DNA of 64,000 bases from Desulfosarcinaceae bacterium (lineage in GTDB: Bacteria > Desulfobacterota > Desulfobacteria > Desulfobacterales > Desulfosarcinaceae): contig JASJCL010000033.1 in assembly GCA_030066015.1 (NCBI GenBank), positions 1-64,000 of the forward strand, read 5' to 3'. The first letter of the stretch is position 1, and every line of letters begins with the position of its first letter. Positions 1-22,996 of this stretch are shown in pieces. The translations under genes and the position numbers were made by a program. Under the pieces are notes generated by a model. It ran no database searches. It was not told the origin of the DNA and was given only the letters and a program-made list of their open reading frames with translations.

Positions 1-3000
1 GCGACCTCGGGTGCGGGGGCCGGTCGATCGGCAGCATCAGTGGCATACGCGGTGTTCAGGGTAATCCGGGGCAGGTGCACGGTTCGATGGATCCTCGACG
101 CCGTCGCCTGTGCAAGTGGCGTTGCCTTTCCGGGGACGATCCTGGCGATCTCTTCGGTCGACGACGCGGCCGGCATGGGCGGCAGGATCGCTTCGGGTTC
201 CGGTTCGGAGCCACTATCCGGCTCGGGCGAGGATGCTCCGTCGGTGGGATCCGGCGCGGTTGGCGGATTGGGATCGGTGGTCCCCGATGTCACCGGGACG
301 GTGTCGTGGTCGTCTGCCGGATCGGTGCCGTTGATCGGCGTCACGATGATGGTAAAGGATTCGCTGGCCGTCGTCGTGCCGTCGGTCACGCTGACCGAGA
401 TGGTGACCGGCCCACCGCTGCGGCCGGTGGCCGGTATCGCTTCGATGGTCCAACTGCCGCCACCCAGGTCGACCAAGTTCAGGTTGGCGTCCGGGATCAG
501 CGTGGTGTCACTGCTGGCGACGCTGACGGCGAGGCCGGTGGGGGCGGTTTCGATGTCGCTGACGGTGAAGACCAGGGCGCCCGTTGTGCCGCCCACGGCA
601 ATCGTCTGATTGGCGATCGCACTGATCGTCGGGGCGTCGTTGATGGCGGTGATGGTGATCTGGATGGTGTCGGTATCCTGCTGGGCGCCACCAGCGCCAG
701 CATGGCCGCCATCGTCGGTTTGGATCACCAGCGTGTCGACCGAAGGGCCGGTCAGGTTCAGATTGCCGGTGTAGATCAGGGACGCCAAGGTGGCGTTGAT
801 GTCGGTAACCGTCCCTTGGATCGTCAGATCGCTGGTTCCATCGGCGCCGGCGCTGATCGTGGCGCTGCCCGCCAGCCGCACCGCCAGCGTACCATTGGTG
901 ACCGTCAGCCGGGTGGTCAGATCGCCGCTGGCGGCGTCACTGTCGCTGATGGAGATGCCGGCAATGGCGGTCGGGGTGTCTTCGATGACCGTGAGCGTGC
1001 CAGGAACCGTGTTTACCGGCGCGTCGTTCTGGGCCGTAATCGTCAGACTGACGGTCACGGTATTCGACGTGGCGCCGTGAAGATCGTCGATGGTGTAGGT
1101 GAAGCTATCGGAGAAGTTCTCACTGCCGTCGTGATGGTAGTCAACGGTGCCGTCGCCGTTGATCACCAATGCCCCATGAGCCGGTGCGGAGACAATGGCG
1201 ATGGCGGTCGCGTCGAGGCCATCGTCGGTGTCCGTGTCGTTGGCGATCGGATTCAAGGTGCTGTTGGCGCCTTCGGCCAGGGTGAAACTGTCATCCACCG
1301 CCGTCGGTGTGTCGTTGACGCCGGTGTTGGTGATGGTGACCGTTGTGCTGTTCGAATCGCTGCTGCCGTCGTTGGCCACATAGGTGAAGGTGTCCGTCGC
1401 CGTTTCGCCCTGGGCCAGATAATCAAAGCCGCCGTTGGGGTCATAGGAGAGGCTGCCGTCGGCGTTGAGCCTGACCAGAGCGCCCGAGGCCAGCACTATT
1501 GGCGATCCCACATCGGCAGCGTTGCCGTTGATCGCCACTACGGTCAGGGGGTCGCCGTCCCTATCGGTATCGTTGGCCAGCACACCGGAGAGCGCCGAAA
1601 TGGCCAGCGGGGTGTCTTCGTCGGTGACATAGCCCTGGTAGACAGGGGTCGCGGAAGCGCCTTCCGAACCGCCAAGGACGCCGTCGTTGCCATTTCCGGA
1701 ACGGTCGACGATGCTGCCGGTGCCGGCCTCATCCAGACGCCAATACCCCGCCAGACCGGCTTCGGCACCGGTCAACAGGCTGTGCATATGGGCCTGAATT
1801 TCCCCCTGGGTGCGGGTGGTGTTCCACACCCGGACCTCGTCGATCTCTCCCTGAAAGCGCTGATCGGTGGCATTTTCGCGGCCGCCGATGGAAACATCGT
1901 TGTACATGGTGTAGACGTCGCCCATGGGGCCGGGCTGATTATGGGTGTCCACCAAGGTGCCATTGACGTAGGTACGGATCTCGCCGGCGACACCGTCGAA
2001 GGTCACGGCCACGTGGCTCCACTCACCCGGCGTGACGAAGTGGCCGGTGTTGTGCCAGCTCCAGGTGTCCGTATTCTCGGCGATGGCATACTTGATCTCA
2101 CCGGTATCGGCGGTGATCCCCATCTCATATTCCCCCTCCTTGTTGAAGATGAGCTGGCTACCGGTGCCGCCGCCGTTGTGATTGATCCAGGCCTCCATGG
2201 TGACATGGTTGGTCATCTGCAGAGCGGCATCGTCCGCAATCCGGACCACATCATTCCCGTCGAAGGAGAGATGAACGCCGTCGGGCCTGGCGATGGGGAG
2301 GTCATTGGCGCCGCTGATGGTGATGGTTACGGTTGCCGTGTCCGTACCGCCGTTGCTGTCGTCAACTGTGTAGGAGAAGGTGTCGGTGGCAATTTGTCCG
2401 GCAGTTAGATGCTCGAACTGACCGTTGGGATCGTAAGCAAAGCTGCCATCGGCATTGAGCGTCAGCCGCGCACCGGAAGCGAGGATCACCTGTGTTCCGA
2501 TGGTTGCGGCGCTGCCGTTCAACTCGGTCACGCTGAGGCCATCGCCGTTGGCATCCTCGTCATTGACCAGCAGGCCCGTGGCCGCCGTTACGGCGAGGGT
2601 GCCGTTCTCGCCAACGGCGTAATCCTGTATACCGGCCGCGTACAGATCCAGGATCGCAGCGGCACTGAGCTGACTGCCGATGATGGCGACCTCGTCGATC
2701 CGTCCGGTGAAGAATTGATCCACCGGCGTGATCTGTAGATCGTCGCTGGTCTGGGTACCGCCGCCGATGGCGATGGGGTCAAAGTTACCGATGTCGCCCG
2801 AGGTGGCACCCGTACCGCCGGCATAACCATCGGTATCCACAAGCGCGCCATCGAGGTAGAGGGCCATGCCGCCGGCGCCGAAGGAGAAGGCCACGTGGTG
2901 CCATTGACCGGCCGTCACAGCGGCCGGGGAGGTGACGAAGTACGAGGCCGAATCGCTCTGAAAGCGGGTCTCCAGGCGTCCGCTGGCGGTGAGGTAGATG

Positions 3001-6000
3001 CTGAGGTGGCCGCCGGTGTCGTTGCCCTGAGAGTCCTTGGAAAACAGATGCTGCAGGTCGCCGGTGGCCGCCGTGTCGGCGTTGAACCAGAGCTGGATGG
3101 TGCCATTGTCCAGCAGGTAGTCGTTGGCATGGGAAATGGCGACATATTCGCTGCTGGCGGCGTCGAAGTAGACAGTGGTGTCACTGTCGCCGGTGATGGC
3201 CCCGGCTTGCCCCAACGTCCCGCCGGTGTAGGTGCCGGCGTTGCCGCTGGTACCGATATCTGCCGCCGACCCTGCGCCATCGCCCAGACGCCAGTAGCTG
3301 AGCGGGTTCAGGGCCAGCAGTGCGGCCGAATAGGCGCCCGGATCGTCGGTCGCCACCGGTGCCGTGTTCCCAGGGACATCGTTGGCCCCGTTGATGGTGA
3401 TGGTCACCCGCTGGGTGGTGCCGTCGGCGGTGGTCACGAGGAACAGATCGGTGAGGCTGTTTCCGGCATCCAAGCCCTGAATGGCCGCCTGGCTGTTGTC
3501 GGCCAGGTATGTCCAGGCGCCGGCGGCGTCAATGGTCAGCGAACCGTATGATCCGACAATGGTTTCGGCGCTGAAAGCAGACTCGCCGGCATCGGGATCG
3601 GCGACGGTGAGATTGCCGCTGTCGCTGATATTGCCGCCCAGGACACCCACATCCTCGGTCACGGCGCCGGTGTCGTCACCGCTTACACTCGGACCTACAT
3701 TGTCCGGCACGATGGAGATGGCATAGACGCGTTCGCCCTCGGCAACGTCGAAATTGACCTGGCTGCCGTCAAAGACCATCTCGGCGGTGGCGACGGTGCT
3801 GCCGGCCTCTGGCTCCGACTCGGTGACCTTGAGGACGAAGATGTCGCTGGTGGAGGTGCTCAGTGGGGCAGGCGGATCGCCGACGGAGTTGTCGTCAGCG
3901 TTCAGCGTGACGAGGATATCACCGGGGTCCAGGGTCAGCCCCCCGATTAGGGTGGATTTTTCGATCAGATCCAGGCCACGGATATAGCTCGAACTGGCCT
4001 GGTTTATGCCGATATCATCGCCATCGATCAAAATCTGAGAAGTGCCCGCGGCAGCCACCTGACCGACATCTGTTGGCGTGAAATGGTAGATGTGATTGGG
4101 GGTGTTCAGTCCCGATCCAGTCTGCTCCGAGAAGAGAAAACTTCCCACTGGCAACAGGGTATTGCCCACGTAGGTGTCCTGCTCGACCAGGGAGATGGCA
4201 TTGAGGTTGCTGATGGCACCACCGCCAGGATAGGGCACGCCGTTGATCAGCATATGGAACGTGCCGGACGTATAGTCGCCGGCGACATCCGGCCGGAAGG
4301 CCAGAAGGTCATTCATGTGCACGGTGGTTTGAACGCCGGTCTCGTAATGGGCGGCCAAAATGGTTTCGTCCTGATTGAAAGAGACCAGCACGTCACCGAC
4401 CCGCAGATTGAACTGGTTGGCACCGCTGCCGAAGGTCAGGTCACGGCTGACGAAATGCAGGGCGCCGGGATCGGTGGCATCGGTAGTAAAGGCATCGAAA
4501 TCGATGGCCGAGGAGAATTCGCCACGGGTGGTGGTGCCCAGGGTGAGCCCAGGCTCACCGAACTGAAGCACCTCACCCTCCCGCCAGCCGCCGGGCAGTC
4601 CGTTGGCACCGGTGACCGAATCCTGGTCCCCGGAAATCCACAAAGTATTTGCGGCATCGATGACCTGGATACCAAACACCTTTTCGTAGAAGCTGGATGT
4701 GGTGTCGGTCACGCGGACCGTGATGGTGTGGCTGCTGTTCGATTCGTAGTCCAACAGTGCACTATTGACGACGGTGATGAGGCCCGAATTGAGATCGATG
4801 GCAAAGCGTCCGCCCGCATCGTCGGTCAGCGTGTACGTCAATGTATCGCCATCGGGATCGGAGCCGGTTACTATGCCGACGGCCGTTCCATTGACGGCAT
4901 TTTCGTAGACCTCGAAGTTCAGTACCGGGGTGCTAGGGGCGAAGCCGGTACCGGTCACATGCATGAGGTTCAGATTGTTGCCGCTGACGGTGTCGGTCAC
5001 CACACCGGGCCCGGAAAGATCGCTGAAGGTCCAATTGGCAATCAGGCCCGGTTCGCTATTGGTCAGCGTCTGCCTGTAATGGTCCGCGATTTCGCCGACT
5101 GTGCGAACATCATTGAAGATCCGCAGGTCATACATAGTCCCCGAAAACACATCGATGGTGTTGTAGCCGCCCAAGACCGAGTCCTGGTCCTGTCCCACCA
5201 CCAGCTCGCCGGTAGCCGTGATGGCCTGCCCCGTCTGATAACCGGTAAAGGACTCGACCTGCTGACCGTCAACGTAAAAAACGACCGCGCCATTGGTGGC
5301 ATCCCAGGTGACGCCCACATGGTGGCTGTTGCCGTCGAACAGCTGCGTATATTGGCTGGCGGTGCTCTGGTAAGGCGCACCTGGGGAATGGACGAGGAAC
5401 CAAATGGACCCGTCGTTTTTAATGAACAACGCCAGTTCTTCGTCATTGGTGCCATCAGCGTAGGAGAGGAGCGGTGCATTGTCGGTTGCCGGGGCGATCA
5501 TCGAGAAGGTGGCCTCGATGGTCACTGTGGTCAGCCCGCCGAGCAGGCTGGCGCCATCATCGGCGACAAGTCCCGCATCGTTACCGCCGTCGGTGTTCAA
5601 GCTCAAGCCGCCGATGACCGTGGACGTTGCCTGCAGGTCATTGGGTGCCGCCAGCAGATGCGACCAGTTCGAGGCAACCGTATGGTCGATGGTGGTTCGG
5701 GTTGTCACTTCGCCGGCCATAAATTCCAACTGCCAGTTTCCACCAATAAGCGGACTTCCGGTGAGATCGTTCGATGCGGATACGTCCGTGCCAGTTAAGG
5801 TAGCGATATTCTTCAATAGCCCCTGTCCGAGGCTATCGGCGGCGATATTACACCCGTAGAAAAGAAGGTCCCCCGAATCGGTCAGGGCATCGCCCCAGGT
5901 AGCGACACTCTGTTCATCCTGTGCCAAGCGTGAACTGTTCAGCCATGTGCCGCCTAGGGCGATTCGGCCCTCCGATCCGTGGGTGACGACATGCAGGGCC

Positions 6001-6596
6001 GAGAGATCCGATCGCTCGGCCAGGATCGCACTGACCTGCTCAATGCCATCACGGCTGGAATCCAACACCACCACCTCGATGGTCCGGTTTCCGTCGCCGT
6101 TTTCCAGACCCGCGATCAGTTGCTCATAATCGGCGACATTGTCGTTGATCAGGACCAGCTCACGGACGGCCTCGACGGGTGCATCCGTGCAGGTGGATCG
6201 CGCAACCGCCGTCGCATCACCAGAATCGACGCCGCCGGTCGCATCAAGGGCCGCACTGGGGGCCGTTGCGGCATTCGGTAGCGGCGATAGGTCCGCCGTG
6301 TGAAAGGTGTCGTTATTAATATGGATAGCCGGCGCCGCGGTCAGCAGGTCGATGGTGCCGGCAGATGCAGCCGGACGTTTAGCACTGGCGTCCGCCTGGG
6401 CCGCTTTTTCGATGGCGGGAAGGACGGCAGTCTGGTCCAGCCCTTTGTCGGCGGATGCTGGTTCGTCGGCAGCTGGTCCATCGATACCGGCGCCCCAGGT
6501 ACCCGAGAGCAGCAGCCGGGGCTCCAGCGGTTCGATGCAGACCCCTGCCCGCAATCGATCCTGATTTTTTGGTCGCTTCTCTTGTTTAAGTCCCAC
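1..6596 (-). CDS. Giant LamG/cadherin-like surface adhesin, DUF4347 type (C-terminus beyond left edge)
   Basis: One open frame runs from a GTG at 6596 to the window edge, giving about 2,198 residues without a stop. The N-terminus carries LEPRLLLSG (about residues 23-31), a motif common at the start of large DUF4347 exoproteins. A DUF4347 domain follows at about 142-292, with VVTHGSEG and LLFYGCNIA. Three LamG-type concanavalin-like domains lie near 320-510, 1090-1310 and 1440-1640. Between and after them are cadherin-like/VCBS repeats rich in NDxDxDGD and DTFTYT motifs. The last visible ~100 residues are a Pro/Ser/Glu-rich linker. The protein is probably secreted and surface-attached, binding calcium and glycans; the secretion signal would be beyond the edge. 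The start is uncertain: an in-frame stop precedes the GTG by four codons and no strong ribosome site is seen. A longer ATG frame at 6679 lies in another frame and does not continue. Confidence 0.85.
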   Translation of the reverse strand, partial: MGLKQEKRPKNQDRLRAGVCIEPLEPRLLLSGTWGAGIDGPAADEPASADKGLDQTAVLPAIEKAAQADASAKRPAASAGTIDLLTAAPAIHINNDTFHTADLSPLPNAATAPSAALDATGGVDSGDATAVARSTCTDAPVEAVRELVLINDNVADYEQLIAGLENGDGNRTIEVVVLDSSRDGIEQVSAILAERSDLSALHVVTHGSEGRIALGGTWLNSSRLAQDEQSVATWGDALTDSGDLLFYGCNIAADSLGQGLLKNIATLTGTDVSASNDLTGSPLIGGNWQLEFMAGEVTTRTTIDHTVASNWSHLLAAPNDLQATSTVIGGLSLNTDGGNDAGLVADDGASLLGGLTTVTIEATFSMIAPATDNAPLLSYADGTNDEELALFIKNDGSIWFLVHSPGAPYQSTASQYTQLFDGNSHHVGVTWDATNGAVVFYVDGQQVESFTGYQTGQAITATGELVVGQDQDSVLGGYNTIDVFSGTMYDLRIFNDVRTVGEIADHYRQTLTNSEPGLIANWTFSDLSGPGVVTDTVSGNNLNLMHVTGTGFAPSTPVLNFEVYENAVNGTAVGIVTGSDPDGDTLTYTLTDDAGGRFAIDLNSGLITVVNSALLDYESNSSHTITVRVTDTTSSFYEKVFGIQVIDAANTLWISGDQDSVTGANGLPGGWREGEVLQFGEPGLTLGTTTRGEFSSAIDFDAFTTDATDPGALHFVSRDLTFGSGANQFNLRVGDVLVSFNQDETILAAHYETGVQTTVHMNDLLAFRPDVAGDYTSGTFHMLINGVPYPGGGAISNLNAISLVEQDTYVGNTLLPVGSFLFSEQTGSGLNTPNHIYHFTPTDVGQVAAAGTSQILIDGDDIGINQASSSYIRGLDLIEKSTLIGGLTLDPGDILVTLNADDNSVGDPPAPLSTSTSDIFVLKVTESEPEAGSTVATAEMVFDGSQVNFDVAEGERVYAISIVPDNVGPSVSGDDTGAVTEDVGVLGGNISDSGNLTVADPDAGESAFSAETIVGSYGSLTIDAAGAWTYLADNSQAAIQGLDAGNSLTDLFLVTTADGTTQRVTITINGANDVPGNTAPVATDDPGAYSAALLALNPLSYWRLGDGAGSAADIGTSGNAGTYTGGTLGQAGAITGDSDTTVYFDAASSEYVAISHANDYLLDNGTIQLWFNADTAATGDLQHLFSKDSQGNDTGGHLSIYLTASGRLETRFQSDSASYFVTSPAAVTAGQWHHVAFSFGAGGMALYLDGALVDTDGYAGGTGATSGDIGNFDPIAIGGGTQTSDDLQITPVDQFFTGRIDEVAIIGSQLSAAAILDLYAAGIQDYAVGENGTLAVTAATGLLVNDEDANGDGLSVTELNGSAATIGTQVILASGARLTLNADGSFAYDPNGQFEHLTAGQIATDTFSYTVDDSNGGTDTATVTITISGANDLPIARPDGVHLSFDGNDVVRIADDAALQMTNHVTMEAWINHNGGGTGSQLIFNKEGEYEMGITADTGEIKYAIAENTDTWSWHNTGHFVTPGEWSHVAVTFDGVAGEIRTYVNGTLVDTHNQPGPMGDVYTMYNDVSIGGRENATDQRFQGEIDEVRVWNTTRTQGEIQAHMHSLLTGAEAGLAGYWRLDEAGTGSIVDRSGNGNDGVLGGSEGASATPVYQGYVTDEDTPLAISALSGVLANDTDRDGDPLTVVAINGNAADVGSPIVLASGALVRLNADGSLSYDPNGGFDYLAQGETATDTFTYVANDGSSDSNSTTVTITNTGVNDTPTAVDDSFTLAEGANSTLNPIANDTDTDDGLDATAIAIVSAPAHGALVINGDGTVDYHHDGSENFSDSFTYTIDDLHGATSNTVTVSLTITAQNDAPVNTVPGTLTVIEDTPTAIAGISISDSDAASGDLTTRLTVTNGTLAVRLAGSATISAGADGTSDLTIQGTVTDINATLASLIYTGNLNLTGPSVDTLVIQTDDGGHAGAGGAQQDTDTIQITITAINDAPTISAIANQTIAVGGTTGALVFTVSDIETAPTGLAVSVASSDTTLIPDANLNLVDLGGGSWTIEAIPATGRSGGPVTISVSVTDGTTTASESFTIIVTPINGTDPADDHDTVPVTSGTTDPNPPTAPDPTDGASSPEPDSGSEPEPEAILPPMPAASSTEEIARIVPGKATPLAQATASRIHRTVHLPRITLNTAYATDAADRPAPAPEV

Positions 6597-7109
6597 GGTA
6601 GACCATTATTGCCGGTGTAGAATCGCTCCCCGGCCCGCCAGATTTCATTCAAATTATTTACATTGAGCTCTGAATCCATGTCGGCACATAGTGTCTCAAT
6701 CTTGAGGCGGTAAGCGGTTACAATCGTTACAGGATAGGTTGCTGAGCCACCCCAAAAACGGTCTCACCATTCTTGATGTCGTGGAAAGCCCCCCGGACCC
6801 GTAAAGGTCAAATCCCCGTAACGCCTTCGCCCACCAACGCTGCTGCAGAATCACTTTCAGCGGTGATCCTGTGAATATCGGACAGGACACCCTTCCTGAG
6901 CACAAACCCGACCCCGTCGGGGGCCCCAGTTAGTGCCGGCGGTCGTATCACCCCGGATGACGCCACGCTTGGAAGGATGGGGTTCGGGTGCGATCTGAGG
7001 TTCAGGTCGTTGACGGCGAGATCATGGAAATGACGGGATGAGCAATTGGAGCGAAGGCGGAATGACGCTCCTGGTTGGACGTGGCGGCGCAGGTGAGGAA
7101 TGGTGCAGC
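6597..7109. other. Intergenic region upstream of the adhesin, no gene seen
   Basis: About 510 bases between the adhesin start and the orphan terminator. I see no convincing coding frame, tRNA or repeat. It is presumably the promoter region of the adhesin. Its base composition is like the GC-rich chromosome, not like the AT-rich segment that begins near 7200. Confidence 0.4.
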
Positions 7110-7147
7110 AAAAAAAGCCCGGAGAGACGCACTCTCTGAGCCCCGGG
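7110..7147 (-). terminator. Rho-independent terminator, probably the original tRNA-Asn terminator
   Basis: On the minus strand a GC-rich stem with the inner pair AGAGA/TCTCT and outer CCCGG/CCGGG is followed by seven T residues. No minus-strand gene lies directly upstream now. It sits four bases beyond a 12-bp copy of the tRNA-Asn 3' end (7152-7163). The simplest reading is that it once terminated tRNA-Asn before the 7164-10622 segment was inserted. Confidence 0.7.
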
Positions 7148-7151
7148 ATGT

Positions 7152-7163
7152 CTGGCTCCTCGG
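7152..7163 (-). repeat. Candidate attachment-site copy of the tRNA-Asn 3' end
   Basis: CTGGCTCCTCGG on the plus strand is identical to 10622-10633, the 3' acceptor end plus CCA and one flanking base of tRNA-Asn. It forms the outer boundary of the AT-rich rdh segment and lies directly before an orphan terminator. Twelve bases alone could be chance, but the position exactly at a tRNA 3' end, the composition shift and the terminator all agree with a site-specific insertion scar. Confidence 0.6.
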
Positions 7164-7243
7164 TTCATCCACTCGGTGAACCAAACGTCAGGAACAGGGA
7201 CTGAGAAATCCTGTTCGCCTCAAAAAAGTTTGACATTTAGTCC

Positions 7244-7288
7244 TTGACAAATATAGCTTGCTATGTAATTTTACATAGCAAGCTATAT
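7244..7288 (+). promoter_or_regulatory. Promoter with overlapping MarR operator of the rdh cluster
   Basis: TTGACA at 7244-7249 and TAATTT at 7266-7271 (16-bp spacing) form a plausible sigma-70 promoter. A perfect 18-bp inverted repeat, ATATAGCTTGCTATGTAA (7251-7268) and its complement (7271-7288), covers the spacer and -10. Each arm holds its own palindrome, ATAGC-TT-GCTAT (centre 7258.5) and ATAGC-AA-GCTAT (centre 7280.5), 22 bp apart, about two helical turns. This is the layout expected for two MarR dimers binding one face of DNA. The first gene downstream encodes a MarR protein, so autoregulation with ligand-released repression is the likely mode. Confidence 0.7.
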
Positions 7289-7335
7289 AAAATTAACGGC
7301 ATAAGTTCAACAATGACCTAGAAGGAGGAACAAAA

Positions 7336-7776
7336 ATCAACCAATTAGAAGGAAAATCAAATGGCTATGCGCTACAGTATACATCACGATTAGCAAAGAT
7401 CGTCCTTCAGGAAAGGATCAATCGCTACAAGGTGGCCGTTGGTCAATTCCCGATACTAGTTCATTTATGGGAAGAACAAGGCCTCACCCAGAAATCACTT
7501 TGCGATCTTATCCGGGTCGAGCAACCTACAATTGCGAATACATTGAAACGGATGGAGCGAGATGGATTGATTAAGCGGATGCCGGATAAAAACGACAAAC
7601 GGCATCGTCGAATTTACCTGACAAAAAGGGCATTAGAAATTGAAGAGGCGCTCCAGAATGAATCGAGGGATGTAAATCAGATTATCGTAAACGGGATGAA
7701 TGAAACTGAACAGAAAGAATTTAGACGTTTAATTGAGATGATATCCTCAAACCTTGAACATGAGCTGTCAAAGTAG
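7336..7776 (+). CDS. MarR-family transcriptional regulator of the rdh cluster
   Basis: A winged-helix MarR protein of 146 aa if translation starts at ATC 7336. It has helix 1 (GYALQYTSRLAKIVLQER), the HTH (LTQKSLCDLIRVEQPTIANT), the wing (MPDKNDKRHRRIYLT) and a C-terminal dimer helix. Between the in-frame stop at 7294 and GTG 7432 there is no ATG, GTG or TTG. A perfect AAGGAGG site lies seven bases before ATC 7336. Starting at GTG 7432 would give 114 aa and remove the dimerisation helix, so I prefer a rare ATC start or a base error. A two-codon reading frame (ATG ACC TAG, 7313) ends at the ribosome site. MarR proteins often control rdh genes; this one probably senses an organohalide or a related phenol. 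Confidence 0.8.
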   Translation: MNQLEGKSNGYALQYTSRLAKIVLQERINRYKVAVGQFPILVHLWEEQGLTQKSLCDLIRVEQPTIANTLKRMERDGLIKRMPDKNDKRHRRIYLTKRALEIEEALQNESRDVNQIIVNGMNETEQKEFRRLIEMISSNLEHELSK

Positions 7777-7906
7777 TGTTCGGCTGAAAAGTCGCTATCA
7801 CGTGAATTTCCTATAACCTGTCGATGTGCTCTTTTTCGGTCTTCGAACCATGCTTTGATAGCGTTTCATGCCTGTAAAAGGCCTATCAAAAAAGATGGGA
7901 GACGCT

Positions 7907-8269
7907 ATGATAGAGAAAGATACCTCGAAACCAAAAATCCACAGTGCCACTACGTATAAATTGTATGTCATCTCCTGTATCATTGCATCTTCAGGTTTCA
8001 TTTTAATGTTGAAGTTCCCTGAAATGCATTCGCTTGAACCTGGGATTGACCCGCTATCATTAAAAGTTTATGGCCTTTCGATAAAATATTGGAAGGTGGT
8101 TCATATTCTGTCCTCACTCGTTTTTTTAATGCTTTCCGCACTACATATATACTTTAATCGAGACTGGATAAAAAAAGTTGGGTCAAAAAAGCTTAACCTT
8201 AATGTCACTATTGGGCTTTTGTTTGGGATTATAATAATCTTTGCCGGATTATTTGCCCCTTCGGCTTAA
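7907..8269 (+). CDS. DUF4405-like three-helix membrane protein, possible electron-transfer partner of RdhA
   Basis: A 120-aa inner-membrane protein starting at ATG 7907 behind GGGAGA. Three hydrophobic segments are at about residues 20-38, 64-86 and 98-116. Segment 2 contains two histidines 14 residues apart (WKVVHILSS... SALHIYF), which resembles the DUF4405 family and could ligate haem b. It occupies the place where RdhB, the short membrane anchor, is normally found, but I see no similarity to classical RdhB. It may anchor RdhA or pass electrons from menaquinol to the cytochrome downstream. It lies 26 bases before rdhA and is probably cotranscribed. The family call comes from motif memory and the electron-transfer role is inference. 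Confidence 0.65.
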   Translation: MIEKDTSKPKIHSATTYKLYVISCIIASSGFILMLKFPEMHSLEPGIDPLSLKVYGLSIKYWKVVHILSSLVFLMLSALHIYFNRDWIKKVGSKKLNLNVTIGLLFGIIIIFAGLFAPSA

Positions 8270-8295
8270 CACAGTACGGTAAAGGGAGGGACAAG

Positions 8296-9687
8296 ATGAT
8301 AAACTCCAGAAAAAAGGACCGCCTAAATGCAGGTTTTTCACGCAGGCGGTTCTTGGGCATGATGGGAATGGCAACCGGTGCGCTGGCAGCCGGTTGCGCT
8401 TACACACCAGTGCGGGATACCAAAACTGAAAGGATAGGGTCAGCTTTGGACAAAAGCGGAGTTAACCCACCCGCATTTGAAATCAAAAAACTCAATTCCA
8501 CCGCCGAACAGACCTATAAATGCAAACCGGAACTTGGCAGGTTTGACCAGAAAAACATGGCATTCAAGCAGGTAAGTATGGAGATCGGTGCCCCCTTTTT
8601 CGAACCTTTGATAGAAAATTTGGAGAGGGCTGTTAAGGATTCTCACATCGGTCACGGCGTCAAGGTCAAAAGTATGGATGAAGCACGTGCCCATCTGGCT
8701 TTCAGCTTCGGTGCAGGTACTTGGAACAATATGGTCGGCCCATATGGTGAAGGGCATGAGAACATGGGGAACCTGAGCTGGAATCCCTTGTTCGTGCCAA
8801 AGGACTTATACGAACATCCGTTGCAGGATCCCGATCCTGCAGATTTGACCAAAAAGGTCAAACAGATGGCCCGTTTATTCGGGGCGGACATGACGAAAAT
8901 CGGTCGAATCAACCGTAATTGGATCTATGCAACCACCTGCCGAAACATCCCCAAGCCGGGCAAACCCATCACCAAACCCATCGTTTTTAAAGATGTCACC
9001 CATCCTGAGGAGTCGGAATCTGAGTTGGTGATTCCCCAGAGTGTTAAGAATGCCATTATGTTTGTGGTTGCCATGCCCCATGCTTCAACCCAGCTGGGAC
9101 CATCCACGACGCAGACCATGGGATCTGTAGGCATTGGTTACGGTCGCATGGGACTCACGGCTGTGGCTCTGGCGGAGGCGATCAGGTCGATGGGATACAA
9201 CGCCATTCCCAGTATGAATGGTACGGGCTTGTCCGTTCCGATGGCCATTGATGCCGGTCTGGGCCAGCTTGGTAGAATGGGATATATGATTACACCGTGG
9301 TTTGGCCCACATGTACGCATTGCCAAAGTTCTGACCGATATGCCTCTGGTCAAAGACGCTCCCATTGATTTTGGTGTGACGGAATACTGCACTTCATGCG
9401 GCATTTGTGCAAAAGAATGTCCATCCGGTGCCATCAGCCCGGACCGTGAAAGAACGTTCACCCCATCCGCACCTACTGGAAATCCAGGCGCTCTGAAATG
9501 GTATACCGATGGAAAGAAGTGCCTCAGATGGTGGATTGAATCAGGCAGCAGCGGCTGTGCCAAATGCATGAGTGTATGCCCCTACACGAAAATGCAATGG
9601 AGCGACTATTATCAAGGGAATCCTGATCCCGAACGTTTCTGGGATCTGGAGCTCGCACCCTTTGGCTACCGAAGCATAGGCATTTAA
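8296..9687 (+). CDS. rdhA: Reductive dehalogenase catalytic subunit
   Basis: A 463-aa corrinoid/iron-sulfur enzyme that reductively removes halogen from organohalides, normally on the outer face of the cytoplasmic membrane. A Tat signal SRRRFLG (15-21) is followed by a hydrophobic stretch ending LAAGC, close to a lipobox, so a Tat lipoprotein is possible. The corrinoid-binding core includes GYGRMG and AGLGQLGRMGYMITPWFGP. Two 4Fe-4S motifs follow: C365-x2-C368-x2-C371-x3-C375-P and C409-x11-C421-x2-C424-x3-C428-P. The length is typical. The related queuosine enzyme QueG is cytosolic, shorter and lacks the Tat signal. The ribosome site is AGGGAGGG before ATG 8296. It sits in an AT-rich operon with a MarR gene, a membrane protein and a cytochrome c3. 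The substrate cannot be read from sequence. Confidence 0.93.
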   Translation: MINSRKKDRLNAGFSRRRFLGMMGMATGALAAGCAYTPVRDTKTERIGSALDKSGVNPPAFEIKKLNSTAEQTYKCKPELGRFDQKNMAFKQVSMEIGAPFFEPLIENLERAVKDSHIGHGVKVKSMDEARAHLAFSFGAGTWNNMVGPYGEGHENMGNLSWNPLFVPKDLYEHPLQDPDPADLTKKVKQMARLFGADMTKIGRINRNWIYATTCRNIPKPGKPITKPIVFKDVTHPEESESELVIPQSVKNAIMFVVAMPHASTQLGPSTTQTMGSVGIGYGRMGLTAVALAEAIRSMGYNAIPSMNGTGLSVPMAIDAGLGQLGRMGYMITPWFGPHVRIAKVLTDMPLVKDAPIDFGVTEYCTSCGICAKECPSGAISPDRERTFTPSAPTGNPGALKWYTDGKKCLRWWIESGSSGCAKCMSVCPYTKMQWSDYYQGNPDPERFWDLELAPFGYRSIGI

Positions 9688-9707
9688 ATGGTAAAGGCGA
9701 GAAAAAA

Positions 9708-10223
9708 ATGAAGACCGGAGAATATAGAGCCATTAAGCGAACTAAGATTTTAGCGGCAGCGTTCACCATTTTAGGACTATTCATGCTACCAGCCGTCAAC
9801 CTTTTTGCAGAAGATATTCTTCCTCCTTTGATTGTTTTCGACGGTTACGAAGAGTCTTCGAAAAGCTTAAACGATTTTGAAACTGTGTACCGGGGACCGG
9901 TGTCCTTTACACATGGTAAACATGTTGATGACTATAAACTGGAATGCGGTCAATGCCATCACGACGACAGCGGCGAGCCGCTGAAGGACTTCAGACCCAG
10001 CGATGAGATAGATAATTGTATAGACTGTCATTATCTGGAGGGGCTTCTTCGCGGCCAAATCCTGGCGGAAACCTCTCAGGAAGAAGTCCTGGAACACTAT
10101 CCCAATGCCATACATCAGATGTGTATTAGCTGTCATCAGGAGCGCAACAATCTCACCCATACGCTTTTCGCCCCCGAAGCTTGCCGAGGATGCCATGCAC
10201 AGCTACTAGAGGAAGGTCCTTGA
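9708..10223 (+). CDS. Tetraheme class III (c3-type) cytochrome, likely electron donor to RdhA
   Basis: A 171-aa exported protein with an N-terminal hydrophobic signal (about 12-34, ending near LFAED). Four CxxCH sites attach haem: C80-H84, C104-H108, C139-H143 and C159-H163. Extra histidines in FTHGKH, CHH and AIHQM are candidate sixth ligands, as in cytochrome c3. It starts 20 bases after the rdhA stop, so it is almost certainly cotranscribed. Periplasmic c3 cytochromes normally carry electrons from hydrogenases or quinol oxidases in Desulfobacterota. A dedicated copy inside an rdh operon suggests a direct electron route to the dehalogenase. The family call is firm; the donor role is inferred from context. 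Confidence 0.88.
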   Translation: MKTGEYRAIKRTKILAAAFTILGLFMLPAVNLFAEDILPPLIVFDGYEESSKSLNDFETVYRGPVSFTHGKHVDDYKLECGQCHHDDSGEPLKDFRPSDEIDNCIDCHYLEGLLRGQILAETSQEEVLEHYPNAIHQMCISCHQERNNLTHTLFAPEACRGCHAQLLEEGP

Positions 10224-10256
10224 TTAGGTACTTAGATATAAATTTGGTTGTAACCA

Positions 10257-10276
10257 CCTTCATGTAATAATGAAGG
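10257..10276 (+). other. Small hairpin after the cytochrome gene
   Basis: CCTTCAT (10257-10263) and ATGAAGG (10270-10276) form a perfect 7-bp stem with a 6-base loop. No T run follows, so it is not a standard terminator. The 3' arm overlaps an AAGGAGG ribosome-site-like sequence and could mask it. Confidence 0.4.
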
Positions 10277-10336
10277 AGGAATTTTACAGCGGAGGAGGAA
10301 ATTTCTGAGGCTGATCGCTTTAGGGTAACATTTCCA

Positions 10337-10597
10337 ATGGGCTATGACGGAGAGAAAAAATTCTGCTTATGTAATTTGGCTGAAGAGGATGAAAAGCAAG
10401 GTGTTCTTGCGATACAAAAGGCGTTTAGGGAATATAAACTTCGCTCTAAGGCTTCTATGTTTCAACAGGCGATTGAATACATTGACCGTGAAACAGTTAC
10501 TTCAGAATTATTCAACATCAGTTCAATGCCCGATATCATTTTTCCAGCAGCCAAACCTTCAGTTGCCCATAAAAAAACTCAGCGAACCAGGTGGTGA
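10337..10597 (+). CDS. Hypothetical small protein at the end of the rdh islet
   Basis: An 86-aa frame from ATG 10337, rich in charged residues (NLAEEDEKQG, IQKAFREYKLRSK). The frame stays open upstream to a stop at 10271 but has no other start codon there, and the ATG has only a distant AGGG. It could therefore be a 5'-degraded gene or a chance frame. It keeps the AT-rich composition of the rdh segment and ends inside the minus-strand terminator at 10571-10613. I do not recognise a family. Confidence 0.3.
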   Translation: MGYDGEKKFCLCNLAEEDEKQGVLAIQKAFREYKLRSKASMFQQAIEYIDRETVTSELFNISSMPDIIFPAAKPSVAHKKTQRTRW

Positions 10598-10613
10598 TTT
10601 CCGGTTCGCTGAG
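10571..10613 (-). terminator. Rho-independent terminator of tRNA-Asn / aspS transcript
   Basis: A perfect 11-bp stem, CTCAGCGAACC (10578-10588) with its complement (10603-10613), precedes seven T residues on the minus strand. It begins ten bases past the tRNA-Asn 3' end, so it ends the hisS-aspS-tRNA transcript. It appears to have arrived with the inserted segment, replacing the older terminator now at 7110-7147. Confidence 0.85.
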
Positions 10614-10622
10614 AGTGTTGAC

Positions 10623-10698
10623 TGGCTCCTCGGGTAGGACTTGAACCTACAACCTAGTGGTTAACAGCCACCCGCTCTGCCGATTGAGCTACCGAGGA
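10623..10698 (-). tRNA. tRNA-Asn (GTT)
   Basis: A 76-base cloverleaf on the minus strand: acceptor TCCTCGG/CCGAGGA, D-arm with AGCTCAATCGGCAGAGC, anticodon loop CTGTTAA (GTT), T-arm GTAGGTTCAAGTCCTAC, discriminator G and an encoded CCA. The 3' end (10622-10633) is repeated at 7152-7163, which marks it as the probable integration site of the rdh segment. It lies 90 bases downstream of aspS. Confidence 0.95.
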
Positions 10699-10787
10699 TC
10701 GGAAAGCCTGCTTAATAGTGGAAGCCAGCCGGCATGTCAAGGCAAAAGTTGGAACCAGCCGGGACGCGCGTGCATCCCCGCAAAGCC

Positions 10788-12566
10788 TCAGTCGGCCTCG
10801 GCCGACACGGTGGCTTTGACCCGCAGGTTGAGCTCGTCCAGCTGGCTTTTGGCCGCCGTCGAGGGGGCGTTGGTGAGCAAACAGGACGCCCGCTGGGTTT
10901 TGGGAAAGGCGATCACGTCGCGGATAGAAGACTCGCCGCACATCAGCATCACCAGGCGGTCGAAGCCGAAGGCGATCCCGCCGTGGGGCGGAGCGCCCGA
11001 TTCGAGCGCCGCCAATAGAAAGCCGAACTTCTCCTCATAGACGTCTGGCGCCATCCCCAGCGCGCTGAAGACACGGCGTTGGAGATCCATGTCATGGATA
11101 CGGATGCTGCCGCCGCCGATCTCGAAGCCGTTGAGCACCAGATCGTAGGCCCGCGAACGGGCAACGGTGGGATCGCTCTCGATGAGATCGTAGTCGGCTT
11201 CCAGCGGCGCCGTGAACGGGTGGTGCAATGCCTCGTAGCGTTTCTCGTCCGGGTTGTACTCGAACATGGGAAAGTGGGTCACCCAGAGAAAATGGAAGGC
11301 GCTCTCATCGATGAGGCCGAGCTTCTGACCTAGGTGGTTGCGCAGGTGTCCCAGGGCTTCGTTGGCGACCTTGGCCTGATCGGCCACGAAAAACACCAGG
11401 TCGCCGGGGGCCATATCGAGCCGCTCGGTCATGGCGGCCTTTTCAGCGTCGCTGAAGAACTTGGCGATGGGGGATTGCCAACCGTCCGCCTTGACCTTGA
11501 TCCAGGCCAGCCCCTTGGCTTTGTAGACGGCCACAAAGTCGGTGAGTTGATCGATCTCGCCGCGCGAAAAGCTGCTGCAGCCCTTGGCGTTGAGGGCTTT
11601 GACGATGCCGCCTTTGGCGACGACGCTGGCGAAGACTTTGAAATTAGAAGTGGCCATCATCTCCGACAGGTCTTTGAGCTCCAGATCGAAGCGGGTGTCG
11701 GGTTTGTCCAGCCCATAGCGGTCAACGGCCTCGGCGTAGGTCATGCGGCGGAAGGGCGTGTCGAGCGGTTTGCCCAGCACCTCCTGGAAGGTATGGGCCA
11801 CCATCCCCTCGGCCGTGGCCATGACGTCCGCCTCTCCCACGAAGGACATCTCCATGTCGATCTGGGTGAACTCCGGTTGCCGGTCCGCCCGCAGGTCCTC
11901 ATCACGGAAGCAGCGCACGATCTGATAGTAGCGATCGTAGCCGGAGATCATCAGCAATTGCTTGAAGAGTTGGGGACTCTGGGGCAGGGCGTAGAACTGA
12001 CCCGGATTGACCCGACTGGGCACCAGATAGTCGCGGGCGCCTTCCGGCGTACTGCGGGTGAGAAAGGGGGTCTCGATATCGAGGAAGTCGTTGGCGTTGA
12101 GGTAGCTGCGAATGGCGGCGGCGGCGCGGTGCCGCGTAATGATATTGCGCTGCTGACGCGGTCGTCGCAGGTCCAGGTGGCGCTGCTGGAGGCGGATCGA
12201 TTCGGAAACGTCGATCTGGTCTTCGATCATGAAGACCGGGGTCTGGGCGTCGTTGAGGATGCGCAGCTCGCTGACCAGCACTTCGATATCGCCGGTGACC
12301 AGATTGGGATTGACCATCCCTTCGGGTCTCGGTTCCACCTTGCCGCGAACGGCGAGAACGTATTCACTGCGGATGGCGTGCGCCTTGGCGTGCACCTCGG
12401 CGTTGAGTTCTGGGTTGAACACCACTTGGGTGATCCCGCGGCGGTCTCTCAAATCGACGAAAATCACGCCCCCATGGTCGCGCCGGCGCTGGACCCAGCC
12501 CATGAGGACGACCTCGCGGCCCACGTCCTGGGCACTCAGTTCGCAACAATGGTGGCTCCTGCGCAT
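10788..12566 (-). CDS. aspS: Aspartyl-tRNA synthetase
   Basis: Class II synthetase, 592 aa from ATG 12566. It contains the N-terminal OB-fold anticodon domain ([23 protein letters not shown]), motif 2 ([20 protein letters not shown]), the bacterial GAD insertion and C-terminal motif 3 ([16 protein letters not shown]). The length matches bacterial-type AspRS. The frame is open upstream to a TTG at 12644, but homology begins at [11 protein letters not shown], so the ATG is preferred although its GGAGAG site is very close. It is 96 bases downstream of hisS and probably cotranscribed. Because tRNA-Asn is present, it could be discriminating or not; I cannot tell. Confidence 0.95.
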
Positions 12567-20842: not shown

Positions 20843-21203
20843 GCGCCGATCGGCGCACCAGAGCGTCGGCCAGAGCCCGCCTTCGAGGGTTCGTCCCTAT
20901 GCGAAGCAGCCACTTCTTGACAGTCTGCCCCACCCCTATGGCATGCGGCCATGGCGCCAACGCCCTCTCAAAGGACGGTCGCCCGCCAACCGCCGGCAAC
21001 ATTGAAAGCCTCATATGGGTTGCTAGATCGCCTTCGACGACACCGACACCCTGGAATCCGAACGCGTCACTGGCAGCCGCACCACCCGCGTACCTCGCCA
21101 AATATGGGAGCGGTGGTGCGGTCGTCATCGGGGCAAATGCGGTCCGGGTATGGGGAGAACTGCGGCCGCAGGAAACGGGGCGGCCTTGGGAGGAGGGCGC
21201 CGG
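20843..21203. other. Intergenic region between convergent kinase and padR genes, no gene seen
   Basis: About 360 bases separate the kinase stop from the padR stop on the opposite strand. I see no convincing coding frame, RNA or clear intrinsic terminator. Confidence 0.4.
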
Positions 21204-21584
21204 CTAACGAGCGCTTGCCTGGTAGCTCTCGATGAAGGCGGTCAATTTGTCGCGCAGCAGCGCCATGTGGGCGATCCACAGCTCCAGGGCCTCGTCACCC
21301 TCGGATGTGATTTCGTAGATACGCTTGGCAGGTCCCGTTCCCTGGGTCTCCCAATGGGAGGTCACCAGTCCGTCCCCTTCGAGCTGGCGCAGGTGCCGGT
21401 AGATCATCCCCGGCGGTGCGGCGCCCTGGATAAAGCCGAAGCGCTGCAGGGCGCCAATAATCTCGTAGCCGTAGGAGGGGCTCTGCTTGAGACTCAGCAG
21501 GATGGAGGGCTGCAGATAGCGCTCCTGCTTGGCCGTTCCCGGTCCGGGCTGACGCTTCTTTTGACCAGATCGTTGTTCATCCAT
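21204..21584 (-). CDS. PadR-family transcriptional regulator
   Basis: A 126-aa PadR winged-helix repressor: ILLSLKQSPSYGYEIIGAL is the first helix/HTH, PPGMIYRHLRQLEGDGLV the recognition helix, and the wing contains AKRIYEITSEGDEAL. A C-terminal helix for dimerisation follows. It is divergent from a candidate Moco-type leader and the molybdenum genes. A 17-bp palindrome just upstream is a likely self-operator. PadR members often sense small aromatic or metal-related ligands; the ligand here is unknown, and a role in molybdenum control is inferred from position. Confidence 0.85.
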   Translation of the reverse strand: MDEQRSGQKKRQPGPGTAKQERYLQPSILLSLKQSPSYGYEIIGALQRFGFIQGAAPPGMIYRHLRQLEGDGLVTSHWETQGTGPAKRIYEITSEGDEALELWIAHMALLRDKLTAFIESYQASAR

Positions 21585-21593
21585 AGATTGACA

Positions 21594-21612
21594 TATATCC
21601 TATAAGGATATA
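21594..21612. promoter_or_regulatory. Palindromic candidate PadR operator
   Basis: ATATCCT-ATA-AGGATAT (within 21594-21612) is a perfect 7-bp inverted repeat with a 3-base centre, about 12-28 bases upstream of the padR ATG. It lies in the shared region before the divergent 74-aa gene. AT-rich dyads near the promoter are typical of PadR sites. Confidence 0.5.
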
Positions 21613-21647
21613 AATAGCAAAACTAAATACTACCTGTTAAAATCTTC

Positions 21648-21715
21648 TCAGGCACCCTCCGCCCGCAGCAAGATTGCCGGGGCGGACGAATCGCCCCTGG
21701 GGAAACGGAGGCTGC
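21648..21715 (+). ncRNA. Moco/Tuco-riboswitch-like structured leader
   Basis: A leader with nested pairing: CCTCCG (21656-21661) with CGGAGG (21706-21711), enclosing AGATTGCC and a perfect hairpin GGGGCG/CGCCCC (21679-21697), then TGGGGAAACGG. The order GATTGCC, G-rich hairpin, then GGAAA before the closing strand resembles the molybdenum-cofactor riboswitch that precedes moaA in Escherichia coli. It lies before a small gene next to molybdenum storage and molybdate transport genes, which fits. This is a motif-memory match; covariance-model search was not possible. A different structured leader remains possible. Confidence 0.5.
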
Positions 21716-21731
21716 TGAAGGGAGAACCAAC

Positions 21732-21773
21732 CTGTCGCTGCGGCGGTTCGGTCCGCAGCCAGCACTTCGACAG
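21732..21773 (+). other. Second stem-loop of the same leader, before the ribosome site
   Basis: CTGTCG (21732-21737) pairs with CGACAG (21768-21773) and CTGCGG (21738-21743) with CCGCAG (21753-21758). It ends ten bases before the AGAGGAG ribosome site of the 74-aa gene, so it could act as the expression platform of the upstream fold. Confidence 0.5.
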
Positions 21774-21794
21774 ATCGCACCAGAGGAGACCGGC

Positions 21795-22019
21795 ATGGAC
21801 ACGCAAATCTTCGTTCGAATCCGCCGCAAGATCGAAAAAGGCGAAAAGAAGCCCCGCTTCCGCGTGGTGGGCGTGAGCGGCGCCCACCTCAGGCTGTACG
21901 CAAAGCACATCCGCCGACAGGAGTTGGATCAGATCGCCGCCGCCACCGGTGCCAAAGTGATCGAGCTCACGGACGCCGGCGACGGTTCCGGCCCGGGGAC
22001 GGGCAGCGGTCGCGCCTAG
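21795..22019 (+). CDS. Small basic protein (74 aa) in the molybdenum locus, unknown function
   Basis: ATG 21795 follows a strong AGAGGAG site. The N-terminal 60 residues are basic and look folded: VRIRRKIEKGEKKPRFRVVG, then HLRLYAKHIRRQELDQIAAATGAKVIELT, which suggests a small alpha/beta domain. The tail is Gly/Ser rich. It is the first gene after the structured leader and divergent from padR. I do not recognise a family. A role in molybdate or cofactor homeostasis is inferred only from position. Confidence 0.6.
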   Translation: MDTQIFVRIRRKIEKGEKKPRFRVVGVSGAHLRLYAKHIRRQELDQIAAATGAKVIELTDAGDGSGPGTGSGRA

Positions 22020-22135
22020 CCCCAACCTGGGATCGGTGGCGGCGCCCGCAGGGCGAGCGGACCGGCCGGTCGCCCATGCCCGTCCGGATGGCGCTCACGC
22101 CCAGCCGCCCGGGAGATGCGGCGAGATGATCGGTC

Positions 22136-22996
22136 CTACTTCTCCTGATAGATGATGGTGCCGAGATGGGCTCCCGCCAGCGCCGGCTGGATGTGCTCGG
22201 GGTGGTGGAGGGCGTCGATGATTTGAAGTTGCTTTAGACATTTGGCGTTCTGAAGCATTTTGAGAATGGGCCGCTCGATGATCAGGTCGTCCAGGTCCAT
22301 TGCGAGAAGCTCGGCTGCGCTGATCCGGTCGAAAAAGCGCAGGCTGTCTCGCTGTTCGGCGGGCACCTTCTTGGGGTCCTGGTCGAAAAGGCCCTTCTCA
22401 TCTTTGAGGAAGATCAGCGAGCGCGCCCCGATATTCTCCGCCAACAGGAAGGCGCCGCAGTCGGTGCGGTGCGGCGGGATGGAACCCAGCTCCGCCGGGT
22501 GCTCGAAAAATCCGTAGGGGGGGATGCCGAAGGTGATGGGCAGATTGCCCAGCCGGCAATACATGTTGAGCTGCTCCAGGTGATCTCCGTGGCCGATCTT
22601 GACCCCGCCGTGTTTGGCCAGCAGCACGCTGAGCATCTCGGCATTCTGCCAGGAGACCTTGTCCCCCAACTTGGAGAGGACCCCGGTGGGCATGCCGAGG
22701 TCCACCCCGATATTGTAGACGTGACGGGCGCGGGTACCGCCGCCCGTCATGAGCAGCAGCTTGTGATCGTCCTTGGCCGCGATCAGCTCATCGAGAATCG
22801 GCAGAAGGGCCTTGGCGCCACGGTCCATGATGCTCTGCCCTCCGATCTTGAGGACATTGACGTCGGGGTGCATGCGGAAATATTCGCCCGCCTCGGTGGA
22901 TTGTAGAAACGCCTTGCTGACCAGGGACTCCCCCATCATGGGCGTGTCGATGTGCAGACGGCCCTCTGCGCCCTCTTCCTTAATCAATTTGCCCAT
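22136..22996 (-). CDS. mosB: Molybdenum storage protein subunit (MosB-like amino-acid-kinase fold)
   Basis: A 286-aa protein of the amino-acid-kinase fold. VLKIGGQSIMDRGAKALLPI, MTGGGTRARHVYNIGVDLGM, GIPPYGFFEHP, IPPHRTDCGAFLLAENIG and FLKDEKGLFDQDP line up in order with the Azotobacter MoSto subunits, closest to MosB by GGQS. MoSto packs polyoxomolybdate or tungstate clusters in an ATP-dependent hexamer. ATG 22996 follows GGGGAG. Only one subunit gene is present, whereas Azotobacter uses an alpha3beta3 complex; a homohexamer or a partner elsewhere must be assumed. It follows the MOT1 transporter gene by 58 bases, in one operon. Confidence 0.82.
   Translation of the reverse strand: MGKLIKEEGAEGRLHIDTPMMGESLVSKAFLQSTEAGEYFRMHPDVNVLKIGGQSIMDRGAKALLPILDELIAAKDDHKLLLMTGGGTRARHVYNIGVDLGMPTGVLSKLGDKVSWQNAEMLSVLLAKHGGVKIGHGDHLEQLNMYCRLGNLPITFGIPPYGFFEHPAELGSIPPHRTDCGAFLLAENIGARSLIFLKDEKGLFDQDPKKVPAEQRDSLRFFDRISAAELLAMDLDDLIIERPILKMLQNAKCLKQLQIIDALHHPEHIQPALAGAHLGTIIYQEK

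Follow-up and report, generated by a model that had tools for sequence, protein, structure and literature searches.

In Desulfitobacterium hafniense PceA2B2 (PDB 8q4h), menaquinone is held between the membrane subunit PceB and two C-terminal helices of the reductive dehalogenase subunit PceA (S486-Q551), and the key menaquinol residues include K489, H495, R499, D515 and Y520 (PMC10624902). The rdhA region of Sulfurospirillum contains an adjacent small RdhB-like gene, 4Fe-4S (NapGH-like) proteins and two-component systems, with no class III cytochrome (c3). In Desulfoluna, sulfate-reducing marine Desulfobacterota like the organism treated here, RdhB/RdhC are present in most of the rdhABC clusters, no TpIc3 was found in the genomes, and c3-mediated electron supply was proposed as one option (PMC7031245). 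In sulfate reducers the step from menaquinol to Co(I) is uphill and a supply by c3 has been put forward only as a possibility (PMC7031245); the low-potential electron route to RdhA is an open question of organohalide respiration. Here we describe an rdhA locus in a Desulfosarcinaceae bacterium (assembly GCA_030066015.1, contig JASJCL010000033.1), located within an analysed stretch of 64,000 nucleotides (nt) that we call the window (positions 1 to 64,000, forward strand). The locus is an islet of low GC content (7164..10618) with genes for a MarR-family regulator, a DUF4405 protein, RdhA and a tetraheme c3. It differs from the Sulfurospirillum and Desulfoluna arrangements in having no RdhB and in carrying a c3 gene of its own.

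The explanation that we favour, and that we consider reasonably probable as a whole, is that the islet was acquired horizontally at a tRNA-Asn gene and encodes an exported PceA-like RdhA that does without the RdhA-RdhB menaquinol complex and is fed by the dedicated c3. The enzyme family is already known, and it is the electron-input arrangement that is new. In the open-access literature, with subscription papers outside the search, we came across no description of an rdhA that has a dedicated c3 as its partner. There are precedents for the idea, since dedicated tetraheme donors such as NapM serve other periplasmic reductases and a cytochrome c is co-induced with dechlorination in Desulfomonile tiedjei.

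RdhA and the menaquinol element

The rdhA gene (8296..9687, plus strand) is of the PceA type and matches TIGR02486 with 218.2 bits against a cut-off of 160.35. An earlier reading of the DNA from its letters alone (the sequence-only reading) had described a product exported by twin-arginine translocation (Tat) with both 4Fe-4S motifs, and this was confirmed: the twin-arginine motif RRRF begins at residue 16 (8341..8352, plus strand), the FeS1 motif CTSCGICAKEC spans C365-C375 (9388..9420, plus strand), and the FeS2 cysteines are C409, C421, C424 and C428 (9520..9579, plus strand). Tyr282 and Arg341, invariant in 30 sequences, align with Y337 and R396 of the Desulfitobacterium PceA, the two residues named as essential in that enzyme (PMC10624902), and the catalytic domain is like that of PceA2B2 in general. 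The best solved relative by sequence is PceA of Sulfurospirillum multivorans (1.6e-73; PDB 4uqu, 5m90), which shares with the window RdhA its sequence type, fold, catalytic Tyr/Asn/Arg and two 4Fe-4S clusters. For an AlphaFold2 (AF2) model built from 30 sequences (mean predicted local distance difference test, pLDDT, 81), the top Foldseek match was PceA (E 1e-36), with the catabolic NpRdhA far lower. From this fold, RdhA is predicted to bind a corrinoid as PceA does and to dehalogenate.

The closest RdhA found, 65% identical, is encoded in a metagenome-assembled genome (MAG) of the same order and a different family, Desulfobacterium sp. MAG Pec_A4 bin17 (contig JAQYWC010000001.1; locus L031). 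In a tree of 81 rows the two enzymes form a pair (support 100) nested in a set of 13 that includes Sulfurospirillum PceA (support 97), so that the phylogeny proposed earlier as a check places the window RdhA with exported PceA-type enzymes. The nearest sister clade of this set is mostly Tat-less.

Both RdhAs end shortly after the second cluster motif. Their C-terminal tail of 35 amino acids (in the window at 9580..9684, plus strand), which compares with tails of 61-73 amino acids, lacks the menaquinol/RdhB element of about 30 amino acids present in PceA. With an offset of 48 between the numbering of PMC10624902 and the PDB chain, at which the five menaquinol residues and Y337/R396 all fit, the window RdhA retains K489 alone of the five, and the equivalents of H495, R499, D515 and Y520 are gone, unlike in PceA2B2, which has these helices together with RdhB. 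The element, recognizable as W.H...D...GY, occurs in both PceA structures (Sulfurospirillum and Desulfitobacterium) and in the RdhB-linked relatives L033 and L168; the L031 RdhA has lost it just as the window RdhA has. A tblastn search for RdhB gave no match in window positions 6000-12000 or at L031, while the same query detected the RdhB of L168 as a positive control, in agreement with the earlier statement that the islet has no RdhB. Judged from the sequence, the lost menaquinol-binding C-terminus is the strongest argument for a route that does not involve quinol. One relative shows an odd combination: the RdhA of MAG B73_G16 (L033:4825-6141, QMLA01000019.1) has no Tat signal, yet it keeps the quinol element and lies next to a small RdhB-like gene.

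The same loss can be read in another way. RdhA could be a non-respiratory periplasmic dehalogenase for detoxification or scavenging that draws on the general c3 pool, the adjacent c3 adding capacity and no energy being conserved. With the quinol site, the redox-loop coupling known from PceA2B2 is lost, the Tat-less sister enzymes look cytoplasmic and non-respiratory, and there is a single rdh islet of sporadic presence. However, Tat export, membership in the PceA-type clade and a dedicated cytochrome suit a respiratory role, and catabolic reductive dehalogenases are Tat-less (PMC7565698), so that we regard a purely non-respiratory function as rather unlikely.

As to distribution, RdhA was detected at E 1e-60 in the host only among 291 genomes of the order, and at E 1e-20 in the host and one further genome (G025) among 30 of the family. 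A second sample at class level added two more, both from the order of the host. Besides the islet rdhA, the host genome has one other RdhA-like gene, which is diverged, and a probable epoxyqueuosine reductase. This second gene (contig C28, about 21049-22262; L030:11049-12263) encodes hydrophobic N-terminal helices, is cut by the contig end and is similar to the transmembrane RdhAs of 'hybrid' type from marine Deltaproteobacteria (PMC6797604).

A tetraheme cytochrome next to rdhA

Directly after rdhA, a gene at 9708..10223 (plus strand) codes for a secreted class III cytochrome (PF02085, E 1.3e-11) with four CxxCH motifs at residues 80, 104, 139 and 159. At L031 the rdhA is likewise followed, after 10 nt, by a gene for a tetraheme c3, 56% identical to that of the window and with candidate distal histidines in common. 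Downstream sequence of 1 kb or more was available for 68 RdhA loci, and of these L031 alone had a same-strand cytochrome (at least three CxxCH) within 1.5 kb; the other 67 had none. In the c3 tree, the window and L031 proteins form a branch of their own (support 99), apart from the dsr-linked c3 of the order, and they share the N-terminal segment PLI-FDG...TVYRGPV. Both are acidic, with isoelectric points of 4.7 in the window and 5.5 at L031, versus 8.9 for the basic dsr-linked c3 paralogue of the host, whose neighbours read by inspection as dsrD, dsrN and tatC. Since the nearest RdhA adjoins a homologous tetraheme c3, RdhA and c3 can be called a conserved pair at the level of sequence, and the cytochrome dedicated to RdhA, as suggested by the sequence-only reading, recurs in another family. 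An identification of the cytochrome as TmcA was rejected, the NCBIfam score of 36.5 bits being far under the cut-off of 114; its nearest relatives are the dsr/tat-linked c3 proteins of the order.

The host offers the components for charging such a cytochrome. It has QrcA, which scores 260 bits (cut-off 180), as well as two NiFe-hydrogenase small subunits and several cytochromes of the c3 type; this bears out the proposed fit to the electron transport of the host. To call the module self-contained was, however, too strong, as the host has to supply both electrons and corrinoid. For the electron path we infer the following sequence of events. A halogenated substrate would be sensed by the MarR repressor bound to a palindrome upstream of its gene, and repression would be relieved. 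RdhA would fold with the corrinoid and two 4Fe-4S clusters before Tat export, and would then stay in the periplasm as a soluble or loosely bound enzyme. The co-transcribed acidic c3 would pass electrons to the chain of 4Fe-4S clusters and corrinoid, and would itself be recharged from the periplasmic cytochrome pool of the host (hydrogenases, c3 and Qrc). The DUF4405 protein would be an accessory membrane protein with haem b, perhaps a connection between the quinol pool and c3.

Several points weigh against this explanation. Only two genomes are known to carry the RdhA-c3 pair, and of these at least one is a MAG; in addition, the marR gene has no normal start codon. The cytochrome could have other routes of reduction or could serve another enzyme. 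The Tat-less relatives L032 and L034-L037 also lack the menaquinol element, yet they have no cytochrome; therefore, what loss of the element shows is that an RdhA does not depend on RdhB and quinol, not that c3 supplies it with electrons. Whether the two loci stand for a distinct class of exported RdhA in sulfate reducers, one that discarded RdhB and the menaquinol site, is wired to its own acidic tetraheme c3 and travels on a small tRNA islet, is a tentative proposal to which we give somewhat less than even chances. If true, a flow from hydrogenase through c3 to RdhA could bypass the thermodynamically awkward menaquinol step, and it would be clear that rdh modules can be connected anew to the electron chains of a host and that very small islets suffice to move them. 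An RdhA without the known quinol site and a linked tetraheme cytochrome make a two-component soluble system, in which cytochrome-driven dehalogenation is directly testable in vitro.

The DUF4405 protein and the MarR regulator

Between marR and rdhA lies the gene for a DUF4405 protein of 120 amino acids with three transmembrane helices (7907..8269, plus strand; PF14358, E 1.1e-7, 32.6 bits against 26.7). Its His66-x13-His80 pair is common to homologues of the order and to a DUF4405 protein from a Sulfurospirillum organohalide-respiration region, and both histidines are probable haem b ligands, haem b binding having been shown for other DUF4405 members (PMC11334425). A single-sequence AF2 model gave helices of low confidence (pLDDT 65), too weak for haem geometry. 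Intergenic gaps of 130 nt between marR and the DUF4405 gene, 26 nt between the latter and rdhA and 20 nt between rdhA and the c3 gene are compatible with a common transcript for the last three genes.

The sequence-only reading had the DUF4405 protein replace RdhB, that is, act as both anchor and quinol-oxidising cytochrome b that would hand the electrons of menaquinol on to c3, or to RdhA without an intermediate, the four genes forming one respiratory complex. The haem b binding of the family, the occurrence of a DUF4405 gene in Sulfurospirillum organohalide-respiration regions and the conserved His66/His80 pair agree with such a role. However, the L031 locus, the only other one with an RdhA-c3 pair, has neither MarR nor DUF4405. 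It shares the short RdhA C-terminus with the window, and in place of these two genes it has a sigma-54 activator (PF00158) and an open reading frame of 100 amino acids. The four-gene order expected elsewhere is thus not conserved, and a replacement of RdhB by DUF4405 becomes unlikely on this account. Sulfurospirillum, moreover, has a small RdhB-like protein in addition to DUF4405, and the window RdhA lacks the C-terminal helices that touch a membrane partner. The GC content of the DUF4405 and marR genes (0.36-0.42) is lower than that of rdhA and the c3 gene (0.47-0.51), which suggests separate origins. Taken together, we consider an anchoring DUF4405 quite improbable. Since it is absent from L031, the protein is better seen, within the explanation that has RdhA fed by c3, as an accessory than as an anchor, with a possible role as a link from quinol to c3.

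The marR gene (7336..7776, plus strand; PF01047, E 2.4e-14) has no ATG, GTG or TTG at its Shine-Dalgarno sequence. An ATC at 7336 follows AAGGAGG, and the first ordinary start is the internal GTG at 7432; initiation at ATC, a sequencing error or a mutation of the start codon are all possible. Upstream of it, a perfect inverted repeat of 2 x 18 nt with a 2-nt spacer (7251..7288, 38 bp) is unique in the window, with none expected in shuffled sequence, and is likely to be the MarR operator. This odd start, together with the missing integrase and the single such copy in the sample of the order, would fit an islet of decaying, non-functional acquired DNA. Against decay, all frames are intact, the catalytic and haem motifs are complete, and the ribosome-binding sites and the palindrome are preserved, which makes non-functionality very improbable indeed. 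The regulator found at L031, a sigma-54 activator, is of the kind that rdh genes of Deltaproteobacteria usually have (PMC6299228). A sigma-54 motif scan gave one -24/-12-like site, with one mismatch, 5' of the L031 operon and none 5' of the window operon, and the overall counts were at chance level.

Islet borders and insertion target

All four genes named by the sequence-only reading were recovered at their places on one strand by gene calls and profile matches. As a unit they fell short, the true unit being larger: a 3.46-kb islet (7164..10618) of GC content 0.454 versus 0.615 and 0.626 in the flanks, enclosed by two tRNA-Asn 3' ends. Its right end abuts a tRNA-Asn (GTT) gene (10623..10698, minus strand), the insertion target. 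The right border repeat, TGACTGGCTCCTCGG (10619..10633), consists of the final 11 nt of this tRNA and 4 nt beyond; the left copy, TGTCTGGCTCCTCGG (7149..7163), found by repeat search, differs by one mismatch, sits at the drop in GC content and is probably the displaced original 3' flank of the tRNA gene. The 15-mer occurs twice in the window, with no third copy at up to one mismatch, and in a control 1 of 400 random 15-mers was repeated within 4 kb. Duplication of the tRNA 3' end at the far border, combined with a shift in composition, is the pattern of a tRNA-integrated island. Assembly words are usually longer than the 15-nt repeat, which makes a mis-join of the assembly unlikely.

In the family of the host, the tRNA-Asn next to aspS is a hotspot of insertion, as two relatives show. 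In one (G011, contig C3, locus L208), genes for a tyrosine integrase and an HTH_17 protein lie beside the 3' end of the same tRNA-Asn, and in the other (G028, locus L205), 20 nt of the tRNA end recur about 300 bp downstream. Gene calls and a domain search revealed no integrase gene inside the islet, in an empty-site comparison of the left flank the DNA shared with relatives ended with the tRNA, and a scan of viral contigs gave no relative; in plasmid records, the RdhAs reached at most 41% identity. A parallel is provided by the ssrA islands of Dehalococcoides: there, too, a direct repeat accompanies the rdh-carrying element, which sits at the 3' end of the gene for a small stable RNA (PMC3146451). 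The islet differs from them in the RNA gene used, in its size of only 3.5 kb and in having no integration module.

Both borders are accompanied by hairpins on the minus strand. Inside the right border, a strong terminator with a 13-bp stem and T7 (10571..10613, fold z -3.66) is supplied by the islet itself and ends transcription of the tRNA-Asn. Just outside the left border, a terminator-like hairpin with T7 (7110..7147), found by a terminator scan, lies where the original tRNA-Asn terminator would be expected; overall, it folds no better than shuffles. An AT-rich segment 3' of the c3 gene (10224-10330) folds better than shuffles (z -2.9) and has no T run. On the left, the islet is adjoined by a minus-strand open frame of more than 2198 amino acids (3-6596) that runs off the contig and, by eye, contains VCBS/cadherin/LamG-like repeats as in a giant surface protein.

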